This document shows positions 28,825 through 44,898 of a DNA stretch of 44,898 nucleotides, one piece after another. The notes beneath the pieces are model-generated. The model saw only the letters and a list, made by a program, of their open reading frames with translations, was not told the origin of the DNA and did not search any database. The translations under genes were made by a program, and so were the position numbers. Source of the DNA: Lachnospiraceae bacterium (GTDB lineage Bacteria > Bacillota > Clostridia > Lachnospirales > Lachnospiraceae); NCBI GenBank assembly GCA_017396555.1, contig JAFQLS010000015.1, positions 1-44,898 on the forward strand, in the 5' to 3' direction. The first letter of the stretch is position 1, and every line of letters starts with the position of its first letter.

Positions 28825-30861
28825 TTATTGTTTTTCTTCAACCGGTTTTTTGCCGAAAGCTAACTGCTCAAATTCATCCAATGGCATTGGTTTGGCAAAA
28901 TAATATCCCTGTATCAAATCGCAATCCTTAGTCGCAAGGAAATCAACCTGTTCTCTAGTTTCTATTCCTTCGGCAACAATTTTCATATCCAACTTCTTAG
29001 CAAGAGCTATTGTATCTCCAACAATTATATCTCCCCTGCCATCTTCATCTGTATCTCTAAAGAACTCCGCATCTAACTTAACCACATCAAGCGGTAATTC
29101 CTTTAAAGAATTAAGAGATGAGTATCCCGCACCGAAATCATCCATCGACACTGCAAAACCATATTCGCGTAATTTCTTAACAGTATTTAAAAGCATCGAC
29201 TTATCGTCAAAGAATGCACTCTCAGTAAGTTCGAGTTCTATTTTATCGTGAGGCACATTATATTCATCAATAATTTCACATATATGCTTAGCCAGATCCG
29301 CTCTTGTAAAATGAATTCTAGATACATTTACTGATATAGGAACTATTTCCTTACCTTCTTCTAACCATTTTGCCTGCTGTATCGCAACCTCTCTAATCAT
29401 ATAATCATCCAATTTTAAAATGAAACCATTACTCTCAAAAATAGGAATAAATCTAAATGGCGGAACAAATCCTTCTGTTGGATGAATCCATCTAACCAGT
29501 GCTTCAGCTCCAGAAAGTTTTTCTTCCTTCGGGCTATACTTCGGCTGTAGATATACCTTGAATTCCTTATTTACCAAGGCTCTTTCCATGTCATCCTCAA
29601 CCCTTCTAATCCACATCTGGTCCTCGTACATCTTGTCAGTAAAGAATCTAAATCTGTCCTCACTATCCTCAGATATAGCATTAATAGCAACCCCAGACAA
29701 ATTATACATCTTAGAAACATCTTCTTTTTTATTTTTAATTCTATAAATTCCCACACTAAAATATATTTTCTGTGCTGGTCTTACATTTTCAAGCGCCTTA
29801 ACAATCCCACTAAGTCTTCTTATAATTTCTTCTTCTGAAGAATAGGCAATCAATATTGCAAAGTCTCCTTTTTCAGCACGAACCACAAGTTCATTCTTAT
29901 CCAAGTCTTTTTTTATTTTAGAATAATATGTTTCCAATAACTCTTCTCCGGTTCTTGTTCCATAGCAAGAACAGAAATTACGATATTTTTCCATACGAAG
30001 AGTAACTAAAGCAGCATTATTTTTCTTAAATATTGATTTCCTTAAAAGTTTCTTTCCCACATCAAAGAAATACTGCAGGTTATAGCCTCCTGTTATCACA
30101 TCTGTATACACAATTTTTGTCAATCTTCTTTTCTTAAATACAAGATTAATTATTGAACAAATATGATAAAGAATAATAAAGGCAGCTAATAACGATACCC
30201 CCGTCAATGCTAACATAACACCTTCAGCCTCATAAGCTTCCACAGTAAGTTTTGTCTTAATACACACCTTAACTGAATCATATGTATATTGTGTTGGAAT
30301 AATATACCATACCTTAGCATATCCTAATGGAGGTCTTGCGTCCTCGAGATTTTCCTGAGTTGCAAATAATGTACTCCAATTAATTTTATTTAAATCAACA
30401 GCATCCTTGGTCAAAACACTGTCTCCGTCATCTGTAAGCATTATCTCTACATTATTAGTACTATATAGGTATGTAATACTTTCTTGATTATAACCAGGAA
30501 CATCATCTCCATATTTATAAGAAACTTCAAAATCAACAACTCCCTCTGAGGTATAAAAATCTTTCATTATACAGATTCCCTCAATATTCGAGTTAACTTT
30601 TATAATATTTTCGCAAACCTCATCCATTTCTTCTGTTGTCAGTTCTCCCCTGGACCATTTATCATCAATTAATGACACTACTTGTTGCATCTCATCTGTT
30701 TCCATGCTTATAATTTTTTCAAACAAATTCGCGCAATATGTACCTAAGATTATAACAATTACAAAGACTGTACCTAAAAGTAAAAATACAGCTCCAAAAA
30801 TATGTGGCCACATTCTTTGCTTCTTAAGTTTTTTCAGTCTTTTTTCTTTTCGTTTATTCAT
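28825..30861 (-). CDS. Membrane c-di-GMP phosphodiesterase: sensor, degenerate GGDEF, EAL
   Basis: A 678-residue protein (numbering below counts from a possible GTG three codons upstream). A basic N-terminus and helix at ~24-46, an extracytoplasmic sensor region (~50-212) and a second helix (~217-245) come first. A GGDEF-like domain (~255-410) has AEKGDF in place of GGDEF, so cyclase activity is probably lost. An EAL domain (~425-670) has EAL (456-458), SVNVSR, ELTES, MDDFGAGYSS, VKLD, AEGIET and DLIQGYYFAKP, all needed for c-di-GMP hydrolysis. AAGGTGG precedes the ATG at 30861. It lies 15 bases after the surface-protein gene, linking c-di-GMP turnover with a cell-surface protein. Confidence 0.92.
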   Translation of the reverse strand: MNKRKEKRLKKLKKQRMWPHIFGAVFLLLGTVFVIVIILGTYCANLFEKIISMETDEMQQVVSLIDDKWSRGELTTEEMDEVCENIIKVNSNIEGICIMKDFYTSEGVVDFEVSYKYGDDVPGYNQESITYLYSTNNVEIMLTDDGDSVLTKDAVDLNKINWSTLFATQENLEDARPPLGYAKVWYIIPTQYTYDSVKVCIKTKLTVEAYEAEGVMLALTGVSLLAAFIILYHICSIINLVFKKRRLTKIVYTDVITGGYNLQYFFDVGKKLLRKSIFKKNNAALVTLRMEKYRNFCSCYGTRTGEELLETYYSKIKKDLDKNELVVRAEKGDFAILIAYSSEEEIIRRLSGIVKALENVRPAQKIYFSVGIYRIKNKKEDVSKMYNLSGVAINAISEDSEDRFRFFTDKMYEDQMWIRRVEDDMERALVNKEFKVYLQPKYSPKEEKLSGAEALVRWIHPTEGFVPPFRFIPIFESNGFILKLDDYMIREVAIQQAKWLEEGKEIVPISVNVSRIHFTRADLAKHICEIIDEYNVPHDKIELELTESAFFDDKSMLLNTVKKLREYGFAVSMDDFGAGYSSLNSLKELPLDVVKLDAEFFRDTDEDGRGDIIVGDTIALAKKLDMKIVAEGIETREQVDFLATKDCDLIQGYYFAKPMPLDEFEQLAFGKKPVEEKQ

Positions 30862-35506: not shown

Positions 35507-38389
35507 ATGAGATATATTGTATCATTATGGATTTATTCTGACTTTATTTTAGCATTATATTTTGCAATCTCACTCCTAATAAAAAGTAAATGTAAATATA
35601 CCGAGAACTGTATGTTCTTAGTATTTTGCCTCTCCAGTGCACTTTGGAGTTTTGGTTTTTTTGGCGTTTTTATCCAAACCGAACCTGATAATGCTTATAT
35701 ATGGAGAGCAATTGGTATGGTTGGTACATTTGCTTATCTTATCAGCGCTCAGGCTCTTTTATGTTTCATATGTAATATGCCAAAAAAATTCAGCTATATA
35801 ACTCAAAGCATTTCCTCTTTAGGTATAATCTTATATTTTTTTGTTATTCAAAAAAATCAAGTTACATATGAACCTACAAAATATGGTATGTCATATACTT
35901 TTAAACCCGGACTTCTAAATAATCTTTACACAATATACACAATAATTCTTGCAATTAACATGCTCATAGTTGTTATTTACACTTTAAAAAAATCAAAGAC
36001 TCAAAGATTAATCGTTCTTGCAAAAAAACTTTTAATCGCTGAGGGAATAATAGCTTTAGGTATGGTATTTGATACTATTTTTCCGCTTATGGGTCTCAAA
36101 GCATTTCCCGGAAGTACCCTTGCACAATTTATAGGTCTTACAGTAATCTATCATTCAATTTCCTTTGTTAACCATTCACGAATTAACATTAGCAATATGT
36201 CAGAATTTATATATTATTCACTTAAGGTTCCTGTTCTGGTATATGATGCCTCTCTTAATTTACAGATTTTAAATGATTCTGCATATTCATTTCTCGGTGT
36301 TAAGGATGGACCTCTTAACTATACTGGCATAGATGAGTTATTTGAGGCAGAACACGAAGACATATTTACATTTACTGAACAGTCCCATGATGTAGACGCA
36401 ATTTGTTGCAATAACAATTTATATTGTAGTTTGTCTGTAAATAAAATTTACGACGCATACAAGGATGTAATCGGATATATTATTATTGTTACCGACCTTT
36501 CAGAACGAATGAAATCAATGCGAAAGCTTGAAGAGGCTAAGCAAGAGGCCGAATCTGCTAATAAAGCAAAGAGTACCTTCTTAGCAAATATGTCTCATGA
36601 AATCAGAACACCTATGAATGCAATTGTCGGTTTCTCTGAATTAGTATTGAAAATGGATATTGATGAGAATGCAAGAAAACATGTTGAAGATATCAAATGG
36701 TCTTCCCACAACTTACTTGCGATTATTAATGATATTCTTGATTTTTCTAAAATCGAATCCGGTAAGATGGAACTTGTAACCGATACCTACTATTCGTCAC
36801 ATATGTTAAATGATATCACACTAATCATTACTCCGCAGGCGGAGAAAAAGGGATTGATATTTAATATTGATATTGATACAGAAATCCCAAGAACACTCTT
36901 TGGCGATAAAGTAAGGTTACGAAGTGTATTAACAAATATTCTCAATAATGCAGTAAAGTACACTAAAGAAGGTAGCGTCACCTTCAAGGCTGGTGTAATG
37001 AACATACACGAAGATACTGTCACTTTAAAATTTGTAATTTCTGATACCGGAATTGGAATCAAAGAACAAAATTTGCCTAATTTGTTTAATGACTTTGAAC
37101 GTTTGGACGAAAGAGTTCATTATGGTATTGAGGGTTCAGGCTTGGGGCTTGCCATTGCAAACAATTATATTAATTTGATGAATGGACACATTGATGTTGA
37201 AAGTGAATATGGCAAAGGCTCAATATTTACCATTACCATTGACCAAAAAATTATTGACCCTACCCCAATCGAATCTGAGTATAATCGTGAAAGTTCTTCG
37301 CATAATACCGGAAGTATTTCTGATATTAAGATAAGTGGTATATCAGTCCTTGTTGTAGATGACAATATCGTTAACCTTCGTGTTGCCGAAGAAATATTAC
37401 GCTTTTACGGGCTACACGTTGATACCGCTTCAAACGGTACCGTTGCCATAGAATTATGCCACTCCAGAAATTATTCCCTTGTATTTATGGATCAGATGAT
37501 GCCTGATCTTGACGGCATACAGACAATGAAAGAAATTCGATGTATAAACTCACACTATGCAAGTGGCGGCGACTGCAAAATTATCATTTTAACAGCAAAC
37601 GCCATAAAGGGAACCAGAGAAGCCTTATTAAGAAAAGGCTTTGACGAATACCTCGGTAAGCCTATTAATATTCATCAGCTTGAACGCTTATTTATTAAAT
37701 ATATTCCTAAAGAAAATATTTACTATGAAGAAGTAGAACAACATACTGAATTGCTTGACACATCAGAAATCGCCTACTTAAAGGATTCATTGCCTATGAT
37801 AAATGTAGAAAACGGAATATACAATTGTGGCGGAAAAATCGAAGATTATTTGAAAATACTTAAAATCACTCATGACTATGGCGAACGCCAATTAATAGAG
37901 CTTGAAAATGCATGGTCCAAAAAAGATTACAACTTCTATGTTATTAAAATTCATGCTTTGAAAAGTACCCTGTTAAACATCGGCGCCACAGAATTATCAG
38001 AACAGGCAAGACAACAGGAGCTGCAGGGAAAGGCTCATGAATACTCATATATTGATGATACCATCAAAGATTTTCAAAGCAATTATCGCAAGCTTGTAGA
38101 GGATATTAATGTAGTTCTTTCTCATTACAAAATGCTTGATAATCCACCTAATGACACCGAAGCAGAAGCTATATTGGACAGTAAAATCAGCCTACAGATT
38201 ATTAAGAATATAGAACATTATATAAATAATTTTGACTTTGAAAAAGTCTTTAATATTCTTGAAGAATCAAAAAAATTTACTTTCTCTGAAAATCATAGAA
38301 GCCTATTAAACAGAATCGAAGAACTTATGGATGATTTATCAGTAGATGAAATTTTAGAACTAATACATAGCGAAATCCGGGAAGTTTAA
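35507..38389 (+). CDS. Membrane hybrid histidine kinase with REC and Hpt domains
   Basis: A 960-residue multi-step phosphorelay kinase. The N-terminal ~225 residues form about seven membrane helices of the 7TM histidine-kinase sensor type. A PAS-like region (~235-335) and a short coiled coil follow. The HisKA dimerisation domain has His364 (MSHEIRTPMNAIVG). The ATPase domain has NNAVKY, DTGIGI and GSGLGLAI. A receiver domain with Asp662 (MDQMMPDLDG) follows, and then a C-terminal Hpt domain with His816 (KIHALKSTLLNIGA). It can carry phosphate His-Asp-His and hand it to the two-receiver protein encoded just upstream. The ligand is unknown. Confidence 0.94.
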   Translation: MRYIVSLWIYSDFILALYFAISLLIKSKCKYTENCMFLVFCLSSALWSFGFFGVFIQTEPDNAYIWRAIGMVGTFAYLISAQALLCFICNMPKKFSYITQSISSLGIILYFFVIQKNQVTYEPTKYGMSYTFKPGLLNNLYTIYTIILAINMLIVVIYTLKKSKTQRLIVLAKKLLIAEGIIALGMVFDTIFPLMGLKAFPGSTLAQFIGLTVIYHSISFVNHSRINISNMSEFIYYSLKVPVLVYDASLNLQILNDSAYSFLGVKDGPLNYTGIDELFEAEHEDIFTFTEQSHDVDAICCNNNLYCSLSVNKIYDAYKDVIGYIIIVTDLSERMKSMRKLEEAKQEAESANKAKSTFLANMSHEIRTPMNAIVGFSELVLKMDIDENARKHVEDIKWSSHNLLAIINDILDFSKIESGKMELVTDTYYSSHMLNDITLIITPQAEKKGLIFNIDIDTEIPRTLFGDKVRLRSVLTNILNNAVKYTKEGSVTFKAGVMNIHEDTVTLKFVISDTGIGIKEQNLPNLFNDFERLDERVHYGIEGSGLGLAIANNYINLMNGHIDVESEYGKGSIFTITIDQKIIDPTPIESEYNRESSSHNTGSISDIKISGISVLVVDDNIVNLRVAEEILRFYGLHVDTASNGTVAIELCHSRNYSLVFMDQMMPDLDGIQTMKEIRCINSHYASGGDCKIIILTANAIKGTREALLRKGFDEYLGKPINIHQLERLFIKYIPKENIYYEEVEQHTELLDTSEIAYLKDSLPMINVENGIYNCGGKIEDYLKILKITHDYGERQLIELENAWSKKDYNFYVIKIHALKSTLLNIGATELSEQARQQELQGKAHEYSYIDDTIKDFQSNYRKLVEDINVVLSHYKMLDNPPNDTEAEAILDSKISLQIIKNIEHYINNFDFEKVFNILEESKKFTFSENHRSLLNRIEELMDDLSVDEILELIHSEIREV

Positions 38390-38402
38390 TTCCCGGTTTT
38401 TT
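38377..38402 (+). terminator. Terminator of hybrid kinase operon overlapping the stop codon
   Basis: Perfect stem CCGGGAA/TTCCCGG with a 6-base loop containing part of the TAA stop, followed by six T. Confidence 0.92.
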
Positions 38403-38534
38403 CTATCCCAAAATCACTTTGCATCCTTCTTCTCTACCTTGCAGATTGAAGATACATTTATAAAAATTTGACAAATGTTCTTGTATAAATAATTCCAAAC
38501 AAACACATTATATATTTGAAAGGATGGTGTTTAT

Positions 38535-38723
38535 ATGAATCTGGATAAGGTAGTATGTAATTGTATGAACATAACAAATGGAATGATTAAAGAAGCGGTC
38601 GATGCAGGTGCAACAACTTTAGAGGATGTGCAGGAGCAAACCGGTGCTTCTACTGTTTGCGGAGCATGTTTAGAGGATGTACAGCGACTGGTAGATTTCT
38701 TTGTTAACGAACAAGAGAAGTAA
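38535..38723 (+). CDS. Small BFD-like [2Fe-2S]-binding protein
   Basis: A 62-residue protein with a CxC near the N-terminus (VVCNCMN, Cys8 and Cys10) and CxxC at 42-45 (VCGACLEDV). This is the four-cysteine ligand set of the BFD (bacterioferritin-associated ferredoxin)-like fold. Such domains pass electrons to partner enzymes or handle iron. Here it is a free-standing protein with no redox partner next to it. AAAGGATGG precedes the ATG. A TTGACA lies at 38468-38473, but no clear -10 box at standard spacing was found. Confidence 0.9.
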   Translation: MNLDKVVCNCMNITNGMIKEAVDAGATTLEDVQEQTGASTVCGACLEDVQRLVDFFVNEQEK

Positions 38724-39202
38724 AGCTTACTATTTGTTCAATATTTTAACTTATTTTTGAAATAAATAATCTTGATTTTAAGATTCTTCGCTTACGACGA
38801 GTTGATTCAGCAACAACTACCTATATGCCACTGTGCGACATCTTCCGCTCCGACGCAGTGCGCATCCCGCCGGAAGCTTTTAATGCATAGGAAATTCTAT
38901 TAGAGAACTTTCCTATAACATAAAAAAACCACACTTGTGAACTTACGCAAGTGTGGTCTTTTATTCTTTTTAATGTATGCCTCTTCGGTCACGCATTTAT
39001 TATCTCTTTGTTAACGCTTGGATAGCTTGAAAAGCCCGAAAACGAGGGATTCCTTATATCATTTGTTGCATACTTGTTTTACACGGTAGACTACTCAGGA
39101 CATCCCTCCCCCCCTAAACATCGAAGATGATAGCATAATATAAAAACATTCTTTTATGTTATCAATATTAATAACCGTCATCAATCCAGTTAATAATTCA
39201 AT
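38724..39202. other. Long intergenic stretch: GC-rich relic and bidirectional terminator
   Basis: Bases ~38786-38880 are sharply GC-richer than the surroundings. They carry overlapping inverted segments (CTTCCG/CGGAAG; CTATATGC/GCATAG; CACTG/CAGTG). Read on the minus strand they contain a short open stretch ending AESTRRKRRIL before a stop, without a start or RBS. This looks like a repeat or a decayed gene end. A terminator lies at 38921-38957. Bases 38960-39200 show no gene; a C-rich tract occurs at 39107-39116. The stretch separates core-like genes from the accessory module to the right. Confidence 0.4.
38921..38962. terminator. Bidirectional terminator
   Basis: Perfect 10-bp stem ACCACACTTG/CAAGTGTGGT with a 10-base loop. 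Seven T follow on the minus strand and CTTTTA on the plus strand. It probably ends the SNF2 operon (about 240 bases beyond its stop) and could also stop plus-strand transcripts. Confidence 0.8.
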
Positions 39203-41653
39203 TTATTTTTCAAGTATCAATTTTTCCATAACGTCAACAGTCATCGCTATAGGCACTTCATGACCATCAAGAATTTCCGAACATAAATTCTTTTTCTCGT
39301 TTTGGAGTTTTTGTATTTTTTCCTCTATTGTTCCCTCAGCTATTAACCTATAGATCATCACATTTCTTTCTTGTCCTATTCTATATATTCGATCTTCCGC
39401 TTGTCTCTCACTCGCAGGATTCCACCATGGGTCATAGATTATGGCTGTGTCAGCAGAAATCAAATTCAAACCCGTTCCTCCAGCCTTTAGACTAACTAGG
39501 AAAATACCTTTTTCACTATTTTCAAATTCATCAACAACTAACATTCTATCCTTAGTTGTACCATCCAAATAAAAATAGTTCATATGGGATATATTTATTT
39601 TTTTCTCAATGATTGACAGCATTTTTGTAAACCTGCTGAAAACCACCACTTTATGTCCATTAGAATACAAAGAAGCAAGAAGTTCCATCAATAGATCCAT
39701 TTTTGCTGATTCGTAGCATCCGCCATTATACTGATTTGAAAGCAATTGAGGGTGACAACATATTTCTTGCAAATACAATAATCCATTTAACATTATACTG
39801 TTTGATTTAATTTCAAACTGGTCATTTTTTCTCAATATTTCATGCCTTATACTTTCAAGCATTTTATCATATAATTTCTGTTGCTGTTCATCTAACTTGA
39901 CGAGCAGTGTTTGTTCTTGCTTTTCGGGTAAATCTTTTAACACATCCCTTTTTAATCGTCTAAGCAAAAATGGTGATGATAATAATTTTATTCTATCAAC
40001 TAATTGATTCTGATTCTTCGTCACACTTGAATATGGTTCAATAACATCTGGATTTATTAATCTCATCAATCCCCAAAACTCAGACAAATTATTTTCTATC
40101 GGTGTACCCGTCAAAATAATTTTCATAGATGCATCAATTGATTTGATAACATTATATGCCTTACTTTTAGAATTCTTAATATACTGTGCTTCATCAATAA
40201 CCAAATTATTGAAATATATACCATTAAATAGTTTGCAGTCATTAACCAAAGTATGATATGTTGTTAATACAATTTTAAACCCTTTAATATCATTAATATT
40301 TCTTTCGCTTCCATGATATATATATACCGATGCATCAGGCAAAAACTTCTTGAACTCTCTCTGCCAATTAATTAATAAAGTTTTGGGAACCACAATCAGA
40401 TTATGCGAATTATCAAATATCTCATCACTCAAATATGCAATTATCTGCAATGTCTTACCAAGTCCCATATCATCTGCCAAACATGCACCAAAATTATTAT
40501 ACATTAACGAAAGCAACCATTTCACACCAACAACCTGATATTCTCTCAGTATTTTTTTGAGGTTAGAATCAATTTTCATACACACATTATTATAATCAAT
40601 ATACTGATTTAGATTATGCACTACACTTCCATTTAAATCATTTGCAAGGCCAATTGCACTAATTATCTTTCTTTTATCTATATGTACCTCACCGGTAGTA
40701 GAATCTTTTTTTAACGTCTTTGATGTCAATGCTTTTGGAAGCATTATAACTTGGCCATTATACTCTGCCCAGTTTTCTTTCTTCTTTCTTAAATCAATCA
40801 GTTTTGTAATATCGATACTTTCTTCATTCCACTTAACCTCTCCCTTAACACTAAACCAATCAAAATCGTATGAAACTCTAATTTTGGAATAATCCGCCAC
40901 ACAAATTTTTTTCTCTGTATTTGTATAAACATTTATTCCGCTTTCTGATATTAAAACAATCCCTTCACTAACATCTTTTCCACAAAAAACAAACCCCTCA
41001 TTTCTTTTTAAGATCCAGCCTGAATTTTCTATAATTTCTTCTATCTTTTCTTCATATCTAAAATCACGATATTCATTGCCTAAATTTATTTGACGCTCTT
41101 TACTTAGAAAATCTACTATTGCAACACCATAATCAAATTTTAATTCTAACGGATAAGAACTGTCATTGAGATTTATATATACCTTAGGCGTTATTTCAAC
41201 TGCATATTTTTTTATTTTGCTCTCATCAATTTGAAAATATATAGATGTTTTATCACCTTCAAAACAAACCCCTTCAATAGAGTGAACATTTTTCGAAAGA
41301 ATGTTTTCATAGAATATCTTCTCTACAATATACATTCCATTTCTTTTGTCTTTGTAAAACAAACATCCCATTTCAACCAAACTCTTTAATCCAACCAAGC
41401 ATGCTGCTGATATCATATACTGATTCTTATTAATCTGAATATTTAAGTCATTGTTTAAAAATTCAGTAATAACATGCATATTAGCTTTTGAAAGATTATC
41501 AAATATTTGTGAAGCATTTATGTTAATATTTCTTAATTGTCCAGAAAATTTTTTGCTCTTCAATTTAGGAATAATGCCCTCATATGTTTCAATAACTATA
41601 CAATTTTTCTTTCTACTTTCATCAAAGTTTATGCTCAATATAAAATCCGACAC
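39203..41653 (-). CDS. SNF2-family DNA-dependent ATPase (Swi2/Snf2 helicase-like)
   Basis: An 816-residue protein. The N-terminal ~350 residues are unrecognised, a position often held by SNF2-associated regions. The SNF2 motor follows: Walker A DDMGLGKT (~390-398), DEAQ box VIDEAQYIKN (~485), LTGTPIENN, FLLRRLKRDVLKDLPEK. The C-terminal helicase half has SLKAGGTGLNL and RQAEDRIYRIGQ (~754). Such motors translocate on double-stranded DNA and remodel bound proteins; they do not usually unwind DNA. The start is GTG with GGGGAG nine bases before it, and this SD overlaps the stop codon of the radical SAM gene 14 bases upstream. That means close translational coupling in the peptide-maturase operon. 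A partner nuclease or methylase is not in the operon. Confidence 0.92.
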   Translation of the reverse strand: MSDFILSINFDESRKKNCIVIETYEGIIPKLKSKKFSGQLRNININASQIFDNLSKANMHVITEFLNNDLNIQINKNQYMISAACLVGLKSLVEMGCLFYKDKRNGMYIVEKIFYENILSKNVHSIEGVCFEGDKTSIYFQIDESKIKKYAVEITPKVYINLNDSSYPLELKFDYGVAIVDFLSKERQINLGNEYRDFRYEEKIEEIIENSGWILKRNEGFVFCGKDVSEGIVLISESGINVYTNTEKKICVADYSKIRVSYDFDWFSVKGEVKWNEESIDITKLIDLRKKKENWAEYNGQVIMLPKALTSKTLKKDSTTGEVHIDKRKIISAIGLANDLNGSVVHNLNQYIDYNNVCMKIDSNLKKILREYQVVGVKWLLSLMYNNFGACLADDMGLGKTLQIIAYLSDEIFDNSHNLIVVPKTLLINWQREFKKFLPDASVYIYHGSERNINDIKGFKIVLTTYHTLVNDCKLFNGIYFNNLVIDEAQYIKNSKSKAYNVIKSIDASMKIILTGTPIENNLSEFWGLMRLINPDVIEPYSSVTKNQNQLVDRIKLLSSPFLLRRLKRDVLKDLPEKQEQTLLVKLDEQQQKLYDKMLESIRHEILRKNDQFEIKSNSIMLNGLLYLQEICCHPQLLSNQYNGGCYESAKMDLLMELLASLYSNGHKVVVFSRFTKMLSIIEKKINISHMNYFYLDGTTKDRMLVVDEFENSEKGIFLVSLKAGGTGLNLISADTAIIYDPWWNPASERQAEDRIYRIGQERNVMIYRLIAEGTIEEKIQKLQNEKKNLCSEILDGHEVPIAMTVDVMEKLILEK

Positions 41654-41667
41654 AAAATATCACTCCC

Positions 41668-42993
41668 CTATTCTTCGAAAAAGTATTCATTACTTAATAT
41701 CATTTTTTCATACAAATGATTCTTACCCTCACATCTGTAATCCCAATTCCCAGAGTGTGTTTCGACAGAAGTAATTCCTTTATACTTCATTCTGCAACCT
41801 CCACCACAGATATATCTTACCTCACATGCATTGCACCCACTCGTATTATCTACAGATGTACTTTCTGCTATTTTCTTGCCTATAAGAAATATATCATGCA
41901 TGTCGCATTCAAAGACATTCAGGGAGCTTTTTAGTTCGTGAATACGATTACACCAATACACATCGCCATTTGCAGCAATGGTAATACCACCAAATCCACA
42001 GTTTTTTCTTAATGCTCTATTCTCATAATTCAACACAAAAGTTTCTGTATAGTAATTTGGATATAACCTCTCAACAAGTGCTTTTAACTTATTACGATAC
42101 TCTCTATTTTGTTCATCTGTTGTTTTCACCTCACGACCTTCAATCAACTCATGATTTAATTTAATAAACACATTAGGATATTTTTTCAAAAAATCATGCG
42201 CAAAAGGCTCAAATTTATCAACAAATATATCCAACTCTTCAAATAGTGGGGTTACAGCCATCGAAACTTTTGTATTAACTCTAGAAAAATTTTCTATGCA
42301 TTCAATTGCTTTTTTAAAACCATTGTATTTTCGTACAGAATAATATGATTCCTCATCATAGCCATCTATGCTTATTTGTATTTCATCAATGTATGAAGAC
42401 AAGTTATCAATCATATCCCGACTCCATAAAATACCATTACTTAAAACAGTAACTAGCAATCCTATGTTATGAGCATGTTTAATTAGTTCTTCAAATCCCT
42501 TATAAACAGTAATTTCTCCACCAGTAAATGTGACTCCTTCACATCCTTCATCTCTTAATTTATTCAATACATTAATCCATTTTTCAGCATCAACTTCTTC
42601 TATAACAACATCTCCAGCATACATATAACAATGTCTGCACCGCTGATTACAATTATTAGTTAGATATATGTATACATTCTTATCTTCATTTTGAATTATC
42701 TTTGGATGTTCAAAATCTTTTGCTTCTATCTGCATAATTACATTTATTACATCATCTCCATCATAGTTGGCCATCAAATACTCAATATTGCAACCTTTTC
42801 TTATATCCTCAAACACTTGCTTCTGTATATCGTTTTCCAATACAATCCATAAAACTCCTTCTGTGTATATTGCAAGATAGTATTCCTTGTACTTAACAAT
42901 AACTATATTCTCCGGCAACTCATATACTTTATCAAAATCTATTTCTGCCTCTATAATTTCATCTTCAAAAACATCAATGTCTTCTAAACTCAT
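41668..42993 (-). CDS. Radical SAM/SPASM peptide maturase with N-terminal PqqD/RRE-like domain
   Basis: A 441-residue enzyme. Residues ~27-90 (IVKYKEYYLAIY...WIVLENDIQKQVF) resemble a PqqD-like precursor-recognition element. The radical SAM core has CNQRCRHC (Cys115, 119, 122), TGGE and SIDG. The C-terminal SPASM region shows the full pattern Cys332-x15-Cys348, then Cys387-x2-Cys390-x5-Cys396-x3-Cys400, then Cys421, enough for two extra [4Fe-4S] clusters. Relatives install carbon-carbon or thioether links in ribosomal peptides. An ATG at 43029 lies in the loop of a terminator hairpin; the ATG at 42993, nine bases behind GAGGAG, is preferred. It follows the small peptide gene (43065-43166), its likely substrate. 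The chemistry is not deducible. Confidence 0.92.
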   Translation of the reverse strand: MSLEDIDVFEDEIIEAEIDFDKVYELPENIVIVKYKEYYLAIYTEGVLWIVLENDIQKQVFEDIRKGCNIEYLMANYDGDDVINVIMQIEAKDFEHPKIIQNEDKNVYIYLTNNCNQRCRHCYMYAGDVVIEEVDAEKWINVLNKLRDEGCEGVTFTGGEITVYKGFEELIKHAHNIGLLVTVLSNGILWSRDMIDNLSSYIDEIQISIDGYDEESYYSVRKYNGFKKAIECIENFSRVNTKVSMAVTPLFEELDIFVDKFEPFAHDFLKKYPNVFIKLNHELIEGREVKTTDEQNREYRNKLKALVERLYPNYYTETFVLNYENRALRKNCGFGGITIAANGDVYWCNRIHELKSSLNVFECDMHDIFLIGKKIAESTSVDNTSGCNACEVRYICGGGCRMKYKGITSVETHSGNWDYRCEGKNHLYEKMILSNEYFFEE

Positions 42994-43012
42994 TCTCTCA
43001 ATCTCCTCTTTT

Positions 43013-43043
43013 AAAAAAGGGTGTGACATTAAATCACACCCTT
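43013..43043 (-). terminator. Attenuating terminator between peptide and maturase genes
   Basis: Minus-strand perfect 10-bp stem AAGGGTGTGA/TCACACCCTT, 7-base loop, U-run of six. It begins 21 bases after the peptide stop codon. It should let most transcripts end after the peptide gene, giving excess precursor over enzyme. Confidence 0.9.
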
Positions 43044-43064
43044 AAGTAGTACTCAAATTAAGAA

Positions 43065-43166
43065 CTAATTCTGATTCTTCTCACATGACTTAAAGCAGTA
43101 CATTGTGTTGATTCTTGCAGAATTCTTTACTTTCTTAACCTTCCAAGAAATTGTAACTTTCTTCAT
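43065..43166 (-). CDS. 33-residue Lys-rich peptide, putative RiPP precursor
   Basis: A short gene with a strong binding site (GGAGG, nine bases before the ATG) and a consensus promoter upstream. The product starts MKKVTISWKVKKVKNSARIN and ends TMYCFKSCEKNQN. It has eight lysines and one arginine, one Trp (8) and two cysteines, Cys24 and Cys28. The basic N-terminal part would be the leader and the C-x3-C tail the core for modification. There is no signal peptide or Gly-Gly cleavage site. It lies directly before a radical SAM/SPASM enzyme and an attenuator, the usual place of a RiPP precursor. It is not SCIFF (which has six cysteines), and I do not recognise the family. Confidence 0.8.
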   Translation of the reverse strand: MKKVTISWKVKKVKNSARINTMYCFKSCEKNQN

Positions 43167-43188
43167 TTGTGCGCACCTCCATTAGATT

Positions 43189-43200
43189 TTGTATATACAA
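43189..43200. promoter_or_regulatory. Palindromic operator candidate at peptide-operon start site
   Basis: A perfect 12-bp palindrome TTGTATATACAA lies 4-15 bases downstream of the -10 box, covering the expected transcription start. No regulator gene is in the module, so the binding protein would be encoded elsewhere. AT-rich palindromes can arise by chance. Confidence 0.45.
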
Positions 43201-43204
43201 CTTA

Positions 43205-43233
43205 ATTATATTCGATGCACCTGCTTCTGTCAA
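43205..43233 (-). promoter_or_regulatory. Consensus sigma-A promoter of peptide-maturase-SNF2 operon
   Basis: Minus-strand perfect TTGACA (43228-43233), exactly 17 bases, perfect TATAAT (43205-43210). The leader to the peptide ATG is about 32 bases. One of the strongest promoters in the window. Confidence 0.92.
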
Positions 43234-43310
43234 ATATTTTTAAAACTTCAAAAACAGCTTATACCATTTTACAATATTCTTAGCTTTATTGGGTGTTTCT
43301 CAATCCAGTT

Positions 43311-44255
43311 CTATAACTTTCCAATAAATTCATATAATAATCTTCCACACGCTTCAAAATCATCTTTCCAAACTACAGTATTTGATGAATGAGGAAATTT
43401 GCAGGGTATAGAAATTCCAACCTCATCATGACCAAAATCTTGCTCGTTTGAAATAATTATTTCACTAGTTCCACAGTCACTTACCTCCAATTGAAAATTA
43501 ATATTTTTTTCAATAGCAACTTGTGTTAAGTAATCTACATATTTTTGCGATGATATACCCAAACTATCAGAAATCTTTATGCCCACACCTTTCGCTAATT
43601 CAATACTGCTCATATCGCCCTCTGGTGTTGTATCAATACTCACGCAACAATCTGGCTTTATCGAGGTTTTCGCAACTCTAAATCCTCTCATACCGACTTC
43701 TTCCTGAGTAGTAAATACATAATATAAATCATTATTTGTTTTAATTGATTTTTTGATTATATTAATCAATAAATAGCAAGCAATCCTATCATCCAATGCT
43801 TTTCCACAAAAATATGTATCATTTTCCACAAAATTCTCACCAAAAGTAAAAACTTCACCAATTTTAATGTTTTGCTCAGAATAACATTCCAAATACAAAT
43901 TTTCATAATTATGTGCTTTCAAATTATCTTCATCAAAAGCCCTAATAATTCCATTGAAAGAATCAGACCAGACTCTTTGCTGATATGCATTCCAAGTTTT
44001 AATATTTCCGAGGGGCTTTATTCTGTATTTATACTGTGATATTTTCTTAATCACTTGAAACCCAACTTCATCAAGATGAACACTTATCATTATTTTTTTA
44101 TTGCTATTCTTCCCTTTTCTATAACAAATAACATTTCCTACATTGTCTATTTTTAAGTCATCCAGGTCCTCATCAACCAACATTCCATAAATCATCTTTG
44201 ACACAGATGCTTCATAACCGGATACACCTCTAGCATTACACAATATATCTAACAT
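43311..44255 (-). CDS. M42-family metallo-aminopeptidase
   Basis: A 314-residue peptidase with the M42 fold. Metal ligands and catalytic residues are visible: His60 and Asp62 (VHLDEVG), Asp155/156 (ALDDRIA), Glu185/186 (TTQEEVGMRG), Asp208 (SIDTTPEGD) and His289 (KFPHSS). Family members are large cytoplasmic dodecamers that trim short peptides from the N-terminus using two divalent metals. AAAGGA precedes the ATG. It has its own candidate promoter and ends 144 bases before the peptide gene on the same strand. It might trim the leader or degrade products of the neighbouring peptide system; this is inference from position. Confidence 0.9.
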   Translation of the reverse strand: MLDILCNARGVSGYEASVSKMIYGMLVDEDLDDLKIDNVGNVICYRKGKNSNKKIMISVHLDEVGFQVIKKISQYKYRIKPLGNIKTWNAYQQRVWSDSFNGIIRAFDEDNLKAHNYENLYLECYSEQNIKIGEVFTFGENFVENDTYFCGKALDDRIACYLLINIIKKSIKTNNDLYYVFTTQEEVGMRGFRVAKTSIKPDCCVSIDTTPEGDMSSIELAKGVGIKISDSLGISSQKYVDYLTQVAIEKNINFQLEVSDCGTSEIIISNEQDFGHDEVGISIPCKFPHSSNTVVWKDDFEACGRLLYEFIGKL

Positions 44256-44290
44256 AGTTTCAATCCTTTCAAATATATTCTGTTATTTTT

Positions 44291-44319
44291 ATATTATTTA
44301 AAATAATTTCTTCTATCAA
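44291..44319 (-). promoter_or_regulatory. Candidate promoter of M42 peptidase gene
   Basis: Minus-strand TTGATA (44314-44319), 17-base spacer, TAATAT (44291-44296), about 36 bases before the ATG. Confidence 0.5.
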
Positions 44320-44414
44320 GTCAACTAGTGCTTCATTTGATATTCTTTCATTCTATCCGTCGCCATCATTGATTGTAATAATCGATTTCTTCCATAGACG
44401 CTTTATCCTTTTTT

Positions 44415-44898
44415 CTATCCTCTATTCAGTCTTCTTCTCTGTAACTTTTTCCATATATGCCTAGCATCAATGCACGCTTTCTGTTCAATGCCTAGAACAT
44501 CTACTAGCATTTTTTTATCTACAATCTCAAGAGCATCTTCTATATTACCATTATCCCTTATAATTGAATCAATTTGTTCCAACAACACTCTTATTTCTTC
44601 TATTGGAACATCATCCAATTTCGGAACCAAAATATTTCCCACTTCGCCTGGAAGAATTTCTAGCACACCACCACCATAACTTCTTCCACAAAGTTCAGTA
44701 AACGCAAAAGAAATACTGTTGTAGTAAGACAAAATTGCCCGTTCCGGTTCAATGCCTTCATTAAATTTGATTCTATGCATCGTGTCCGTAGATACTGCCT
44801 CGCACTGATTCAAAACAAATTTAGGATACAAATTGTTTCTGCGTAAAAAGAATGCGTCCGGCACCCATATAGATGGAATTCGATACCATCTGTCTCTG
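44415..44898 (-). CDS. C-terminal part of a DNA adenine methyltransferase (cut by window edge)
   Basis: The frame is open to the window edge and about 160 residues are visible. The visible part lacks the NPPY and SAM-binding motifs, which would lie upstream. Segments such as RIPSIWVPDAFFLRR, STDTMHRIKF and SFAFTELCGRSYGGGVLEILPGEV are typical of the target-recognition end of class I N6-adenine methylases (Eco57I/type IIG or HsdM-like). The frame ends in a basic tail and TAG at 44415. It is part of a restriction-modification or phage-defence gene, intact or not unknown. An open frame with one internal stop lies just downstream (about 44276-44405) and may be a decayed gene. Confidence 0.65.
   Translation of the reverse strand, partial: RDRWYRIPSIWVPDAFFLRRNNLYPKFVLNQCEAVSTDTMHRIKFNEGIEPERAILSYYNSISFAFTELCGRSYGGGVLEILPGEVGNILVPKLDDVPIEEIRVLLEQIDSIIRDNGNIEDALEIVDKKMLVDVLGIEQKACIDARHIWKKLQRRRLNRG

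Follow-up and report, generated by a model that had tools for sequence, protein, structure and literature searches.

Gene content and layout of the locus

We analyzed a 44,898-nucleotide contig of a Lachnospiraceae bacterium (GenBank assembly GCA_017396555.1, contig JAFQLS010000015.1; hereafter the window), focusing on a locus for which an initial annotation, made from the sequence alone, had proposed a three-gene operon encoding a 33-residue Cys-containing peptide, a radical S-adenosylmethionine (SAM)/SPASM maturase, and an SNF2-family ATPase, the first two being read as a ribosomally synthesized and post-translationally modified peptide (RiPP) system. The three genes were confirmed, all of them on the minus strand. 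The unit is larger than described, however: an M42-family aminopeptidase gene upstream of the peptide, overlooked at first, is part of it. Along the minus strand, the order is M42, promoter, peptide, maturase, and SNF2, with the following features:

43311..44255, minus strand: M42-family aminopeptidase gene (314 aa)
43205..43233, minus strand: peptide-gene promoter, TTGACA-N17-TATAAT (12/12 consensus)
43175..43180, minus strand: peptide-gene ribosome binding site, GGAGGT (read in the sequence)
43065..43166, minus strand: precursor peptide gene (33 aa)
43068..43103, minus strand: conserved C-terminal core, peptide residues 22–33
about 43013..43043, minus strand: terminator/attenuator hairpin in the peptide–maturase gap (fold test)
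41668..43029 as listed, or 41668..42993 from the proposed start (441 aa), minus strand: radical SAM/SPASM maturase gene
39203..41653, minus strand: SNF2-family ATPase gene (816 aa, GTG start)

As first described, the ribosome binding site of the SNF2 gene overlaps the maturase stop codon (TAGGGGAG). The consensus promoter placed ahead of the peptide was also borne out: it matches the sigma-70 consensus at 12/12 positions with a 17-base spacer, and is the best among 43 promoter-like sites listed for positions 38300–44898, where shuffled sequences average 37 sites of any quality. What had escaped notice is a terminator behind the peptide. A hairpin with a trailing T-run encloses the ATG listed as the maturase start (43029), and the region 42990–43070 folds at ΔG −25 (z −4.1), which none of 200 shuffles equaled; the scan that gave the promoter-like sites did not report this hairpin. 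A hairpin occupies the same position at 10 of 10 loci examined, at one of them (L011) only once the maturase start is moved, and in at least one case (L016) without a clear T-run behind it. Because the listed ATG sits inside the hairpin and the ATG at 42993 stands behind AGAGGAG, 42993 is the likelier maturase start, and the peptide gene has its own terminator. With a strong promoter and a terminator around its gene, the precursor should exceed its enzymes in amount. A comparable promoter precedes the peptide in L009 (pattern search) and in G468 (read by eye), and pattern search found none in L007 and L008.

Linkage of maturase and SNF2 genes across genomes

We compared 24 members of the maturase family after removing repeats, a number that is a lower bound on the census. 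The best 80 of 482 relatives in a scan of genome contigs comprised 12 close and 68 remote loci, to which one IMG/VR contig and one Treponema saccharophilum plasmid were added. L113 (on the contig of L013), L015 (the same as L003), L005 (part of L115), and the repeat loci L001, L006, L087–L104, and L126 were not recounted. Little upstream sequence is available at L012, L013, and L111, where M42 status is uninformative, and about 2.9 kb downstream at L114.

The SNF2 gene adjoins the maturase gene in 18 of the 24 members, always as the next downstream gene and with a small or nil gap. Sixteen of these loci (type A) have the order M42–peptide–maturase–SNF2 and occur in Bacillota, Bacteroidota, and one Spirochaetota metagenome-assembled genome (MAG), with two exceptions at contig ends: M42 is unseen in L009, where the end is too close, and SNF2 is cut in L108. 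The two type B loci, from T. saccharophilum and from G1323 of the window's class, have the order maturase–SNF2–methyltransferase, followed at each locus by a pair of candidate peptides that were chosen by eye and contain W and Cys motifs (GCFKSC, for instance). The six SNF2-less members form one clade (support 95/93) and have different peptides. The initial annotation had proposed checking whether the peptide, maturase, and SNF2 genes co-occur in other genomes, and this association proved to be conserved, including a precursor between peptidase and maturase at 16/16 loci, as expected from its RiPP reading. The shared gene order and peptide core in 16 loci indicate an association above chance.

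The alternative that SNF2 is a passenger, i.e., that unrelated genes reside on shared mobile islands, would agree with the frequency of SNF2 ATPases in defence systems (PADLOC matches) and with the six members lacking SNF2 in the available sequence. Its fixed place directly downstream in 18 loci nevertheless makes this very improbable, as do two further results. First, among the 68 control loci, i.e., the remote radical SAM portion of the best 80 of 482 relatives (mean 13.8 kb), none had a match at E 1e-3 to SNF2, M42, or the RdrB-like deaminase described below. Second, maturase and SNF2 distances are correlated (r 0.94, 14 loci, 0/9999 permutations as high), also within groups (Bacillota-type 0.99, Bacteroidota 0.87), a correlation to which shared host descent contributes. 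We are thus confident that these genes form a conserved RiPP–SNF2 module.

Adjacent candidate precursor pairs lie behind the methyltransferase at L128:12743-12963 and L003:13405-13719, possibly representing a two-peptide system. The sister maturases without a visible SNF2 (L012, L013, L014, L111, L112, and L114) are accompanied by small Cys peptides (with motifs such as GCFARCC, GCYAVCC, and GCFFSCC), and a TmtA-like gene lies downstream in L013.

A nearly fixed precursor core and its maturase

Type A peptides are homologous and in the same place in 16/16 cassettes, with a length of 33–37 aa; each cassette thus carries a linked short precursor with a conserved core. The last 12 residues are nearly fixed, all 16 peptides ending in M[YF]CF[KR]xC[DES]xN[QKR]N, with M22, C24, F25, C28, N31, and N33 constant. 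The two cysteines of the window peptide, Cys24 and Cys28, fall within this core. Further upstream, W8 and R18 are constant in all 10 peptides aligned. Pairwise comparison of core codons gave 462 synonymous vs. 298 nonsynonymous differences, with common ancestry counted repeatedly. The precursor had no family match in NCBIfam or Pfam. Radical SAM peptides have mostly been studied as antibiotics, signals, or cofactors; the constancy of this core over distant hosts would suit a fixed ligand or cofactor more than a diversifying bacteriocin.

The assignment of the second gene to the radical SAM/SPASM maturases stood (Pfam Radical_SAM, E 4.4e-23). Its CX3CX2C motif and seven SPASM-type cysteines, 10 Cys in all, are kept in 24/24 relatives, with a SPASM spacing of C344–C360, CX2CX5CX3C, and C433 in the numbering of the listed start. 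A profile search matched the SkfB structure 6efn (E 3.1e-39). Among 25 of 68 NCBIfam families listed, equivalogs remained below cut-off throughout, the best being StsB (100.5 bits vs. 625) and SkfB (91.5 vs. 300). Besides its start codon, the part of the earlier description that required revision is the N-terminal PqqD-like segment, which had no Pfam match and whose profile had no match among PDB sequences. In the predicted model, residues 30–91 form three strands then three helices (block pLDDT 87–97), a fold that fits a RiPP recognition element (RRE). Two full-length structural matches (5wgg, 8vpo) include this segment, residues before 100 being barely probed by the comparison. A PADLOC label of pVip for the maturase was rejected: the match reflects the shared core, and the remaining pVip parts are absent from the cassette.

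To identify other shared components, 215 open reading frames of ≥90 aa from 17 loci were clustered, taking the window from position 30001 and omitting L017 as a near copy. The families found in at least 3 loci were the maturase (17), SNF2 (16), M42 (14), the RdrB-like deaminase (9), a small protein (6), and a leucine-rich repeat family (3). In line with the initial annotation, no transporter family is common to at least 3 of the 17 loci, and no transporter gene lies inside the cassette. Since no transporter travels with the module, the product would stay intracellular, and we consider it probable that it is both intracellular and fixed in structure. An antimicrobial, sactipeptide-like bacteriocin, with SNF2 as a regulator or immunity factor, would be in keeping with the resemblance of the maturase to sactipeptide maturases (the StsB and SkfB models below cut-off, and the SkfB structure). 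This seems improbable, however, given that neither an exporter nor an immunity family is common to the 17 loci and that the core, far from being diversified, hardly varies between phyla. Helix-turn-helix proteins encoded downstream in L007 and L008 showed no detectable relation by BLASTP.

The M42 peptidase and the SNF2 motor

The M42 gene product matches Peptidase_M42 (Pfam, E 7.4e-48), and its gene is at the same position in 15/16 cassettes. H60, D62, D155, E185, E186, D208, and H289, which we take to be the metal/catalytic residues, are invariant in 8/8 aligned sequences, and this protein is a candidate leader-trimming peptidase. The constant adjacency of the peptidase and precursor genes would also suit a restrained toxin, i.e., a modified core that harms cell or phage transcription and that M42 destroys or releases, with SNF2 setting the switch in an abortive-infection arrangement. 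A precedent for such an activity, described in the portions of a review available to us (PMC12360287), is a lanthipeptide that acts against phages inside the cell by blocking their late transcription. This scenario is nonetheless rather unlikely, since the loci have no antitoxin-like gene in common.

The SNF2 protein combines an N-terminal region of ~350 residues with a complete motor core (Pfam SNF2-rel_dom, E 9.4e-64; Helicase_C, E 3.9e-21), in which the DDMGLGKT, DEAQ, and Helicase_C motifs of an SNF2 ATPase are retained. The window genome has no second SNF2 match at E 1e-10. The N-terminal region is common to the Bacillota-type, Treponema, and G1323 proteins (HH probability 99). Plasmid searches with this N-terminus alone were empty, a weakly informative result as the query also missed T. 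saccharophilum, and those with the Bacteroidota SNF2 N-terminus were empty as well. PADLOC-type labels of DpdE, ZorD, and DrmD were rejected for this protein, the matches reflecting the shared core and the other system parts being absent from the cassette.

Distribution and horizontal movement

Carriers are scattered. A single-protein search found the window alone among 397 genomes of its family at E 1e-25, scoring up to 4 candidates per genome, with one genome representing the window's genus. Profile searches recovered carriers in 2/392 genomes of the order, 2/201 of the class, 1/188 Spirochaetota (the starting genome), and 11/399 Bacteroidaceae (the family of Xylanibacter). In viral collections, the single-protein search returned nothing and the profile search one cassette (L105); phage records gave partial, weak matches in 9 and a match with 80% coverage in none, and among the best 80 of 576 confirmed SNF2 loci on viral contigs none had this maturase beside it. 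The L105 contig (IMGVR_UViG_3300031993_005618), which carries the cassette and an RdrB-like gene, is filed as viral; being a near copy of the chromosomal L010 and L018, it may be wrongly labeled.

Base composition and phylogeny were consistent with transfer at some of these loci. In L008, a Spirochaetia MAG, the cassette has a GC content of 0.31 against 0.47 in its flanks, and it nests with Oribacterium in both trees. The cassette-to-flank values are 0.40 and 0.51 in T. saccharophilum, and 0.31 and 0.35 in the window; they are equal in L007, and the cassette lies above its flanks in L011. Taken together, the module appears to move between hosts as one unit.

Defence context and RdrB-like deaminases

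RADAR (RdrA–RdrB) converts ATP to ITP, according to the available portions of PMC9994260. Of 11 Bacteroidota cassettes, 10 have an RdrB-like deaminase gene next to them, encoded on one strand or the other; the remaining cassette (L108) is cut by the contig end. The motifs H-x-HLKGSS, TYH[VA]GED, DRLGH, and SINTDD are retained in 10/10. Across the 399 Bacteroidaceae genomes, deaminase matches below E 1e-100 occurred in 6, all among 7 cassette carriers, and three weaker matches (E 3e-45 to 4e-40) in cassette-free genomes (Fisher p 1e-10). An RdrA-like gene stands beside the RdrB-like gene in L106, L107, and, cut short, L017, among 18 loci searched, and none was found in the window. RdrB-like follows SNF2 by 15 bases in L110. 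Additional defence-type neighbors include PifA-like and PDC-M62A (L011), PglZ, ZacA, and ZacC (L110), HEC-02A (L106), AriB-like (L017), and FRG/PDC-S15 (L003).

In L107:549-11037 (minus strand), M42, peptide, maturase, SNF2, PycC-like, RdrA-like, and RdrB-like genes follow one another on one strand with small or nil spacing. L010, L011, L016, L018, L105, L109, and L110 have RdrB-like without RdrA-like in the available sequence. Most RdrA-less RdrB-like genes stand next to one encoding a small protein of 110–139 aa, weakly HIRAN-like in 3 of 6 cases (E 1.7e-4, 0.025, and 0.071, all under the Pfam cut-off), which is suggestive of a HIRAN protein.

The defence role raised at the outset is thus suggested by these Bacteroidota neighbors, with little or no defence context elsewhere. 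An explanation in which the product is a peptide-derived redox cofactor or regulator, SNF2 a transcription-type regulator or target, and the defence neighbors merely a feature of mobile islands would account for these other carriers, for the near-fixity of the core in distant bacteria, for a peptidase able to release an end product, and for the missing transporter; PQQ and mycofactocin are peptide-derived cofactors. We consider it unlikely, however, because no common redox enzyme lies beside the module to use such a cofactor, because strong RdrB-like matches in Bacteroidaceae track the module, and because its distribution is patchy.

A possible intracellular peptide–motor defence module

The explanation that we favor, and for which we regard the arguments as evenly balanced, is that a mobile four-gene module couples an intracellular modified peptide to an SNF2 motor, with defence as the outcome. 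The promoter and terminator framing the precursor gene constitute the first step. The RRE-type N-terminus of the maturase would then bind the leader as a strand around residues 3–11, and the enzyme would cross-link the core MYCFKxCxxNxN, most likely through thioether bonds at Cys24 and Cys28, given that the closest relatives of solved structure are RiPP maturases, SkfB among them. M42 would subsequently trim the leader from the N-terminus until the ring is reached. Retained in the cell, the product would serve as a fixed-structure ligand for SNF2, which may scan DNA for invasion. The outcome would be defence against phages or other elements. In Bacteroidota, the output is probably deamination of adenine nucleotides by an RdrB-like enzyme; elsewhere, it would be another effector or the SNF2–peptide pair itself.

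These components differ in strength. That the module serves defence at all is a reading we neither lean toward nor away from; direct control of SNF2 by the peptide is possible, and we propose it tentatively. The cassette may represent a bacterial immunity module of a kind not yet on record. In a more speculative and somewhat doubtful version, it would be a new immune class in which the crosslinked peptide is the built-in ligand of SNF2, arming or restraining a motor that reads invading DNA, with a swappable effector, i.e., an RdrB-type nucleotide deaminase in Bacteroidota and another in other phyla.

Several observations weigh against the favored explanation. Carriers outside Bacteroidota, the window included, have little or no defence context: RdrB-like is absent from 7/7 non-Bacteroidota carrier genomes (that of the window and 6 others), in a search without its own positive control whose query found its targets in Bacteroidaceae, and no defence gene was found among the scanned neighbors of L007, L128, L008, and L009, some neighbors being scanned. 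Near the window cassette, the sole defence-looking gene is a fragment of a type II methyltransferase where the contig ends, and a scan of 10 further window genes gave ordinary functions or no assignment. Between Bacteroidota and Bacillota, the SNF2 N-terminal regions resemble each other only weakly (HH probability 45). The branch that sets the 16 cassettes apart has support of 91/85, under the strict mark, with L115 on a long branch, and the compared loci include near copies (L010/L018/L105 and L017/L106).

If the link is functional, RiPPs would gain a place in cellular immunity, RdrA-less RdrB-type deaminases would gain a possible partner, and the role of an unexported RiPP could be approached with one four-gene cassette. 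In this module, a nearly fixed peptide product accompanies a DNA motor from phylum to phylum, joined in one of them by a RADAR-type deaminase.

Comparison with known systems

The closest enzymes are the SPASM RiPP maturases (SkfB, CteB-type 5wgg, and SuiB), to which the window cassette adds SNF2 and M42, with no transporter. We found no description of the M42–peptide–maturase–SNF2 combination in the open-access literature, and the main text of PMC10352776, in the portions available, does not mention SNF2, helicase, or M42. In the material available to us, the published idea that comes nearest was put forward by Kaur et al. 2020 (PMC7159879), whose peptide-processing module is built from other families. 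These VMAP/FtsH conflict-system modules include a zincin peptidase, FxSxx, RxD, or acidic peptides, a MoxR-vWA core, and an AP-ATPase effector. From the same portions of that paper, both share a metallopeptidase, a small peptide with a conserved C-terminus, a radical SAM/SPASM enzyme, an NTPase, and a conflict setting; unlike them, the cassette has M42, a CFKxC peptide, an SNF2 motor, and RdrB-like in Bacteroidota only. Its peptide ends in CFKxCxxNxN rather than in an FxSxx, RxD, or acidic C-terminus, and no MoxR-vWA or FtsH family is common to the 17 loci, where some neighbors were scanned.

Like RADAR as outlined in PMC9994260, the Bacteroidota cassettes adjoin RdrB-like proteins with intact adenosine-deaminase motifs, three of them with an RdrA-like neighbor; unlike RADAR, most RdrB-like loci show no RdrA-like gene in the available sequence, and both genes are missing from the window and the other carriers outside Bacteroidota. 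In Actinomycetota, intracellular anti-phage lanthipeptides are encoded near defence genes and are proposed to protect against phages, as reviewed in the accessible part of PMC12360287; the retention of a modified peptide in the cell is shared, whereas that part describes lanthipeptide chemistry with no SNF2 or radical SAM. Finally, the Chryseobacterium DUF692 RiPP cluster has an M42 peptidase, ChrP, and precursors with a highly conserved C-terminal Cys motif; judging from the portions of PMC10214503 available, M42 is held in common, with DUF692 instead of radical SAM and no SNF2.

Neighboring genes in the window

Scanned neighbors of the window cassette are two-component, sigma, GGDEF/EAL, carbamoyl-phosphate synthase, P-type ATPase, or germination genes, or are unassigned. 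Upstream, the methyltransferase fragment (44415-44897) adjoins M42 on the same strand and corresponds to the C-terminal portion of a type II (M.Eco57I-like) enzyme cut by the contig end. Just past SNF2, a small BFD-like [2Fe-2S] protein is encoded on the opposite strand (38535-38723), with a clear terminator behind it (38928-38957).

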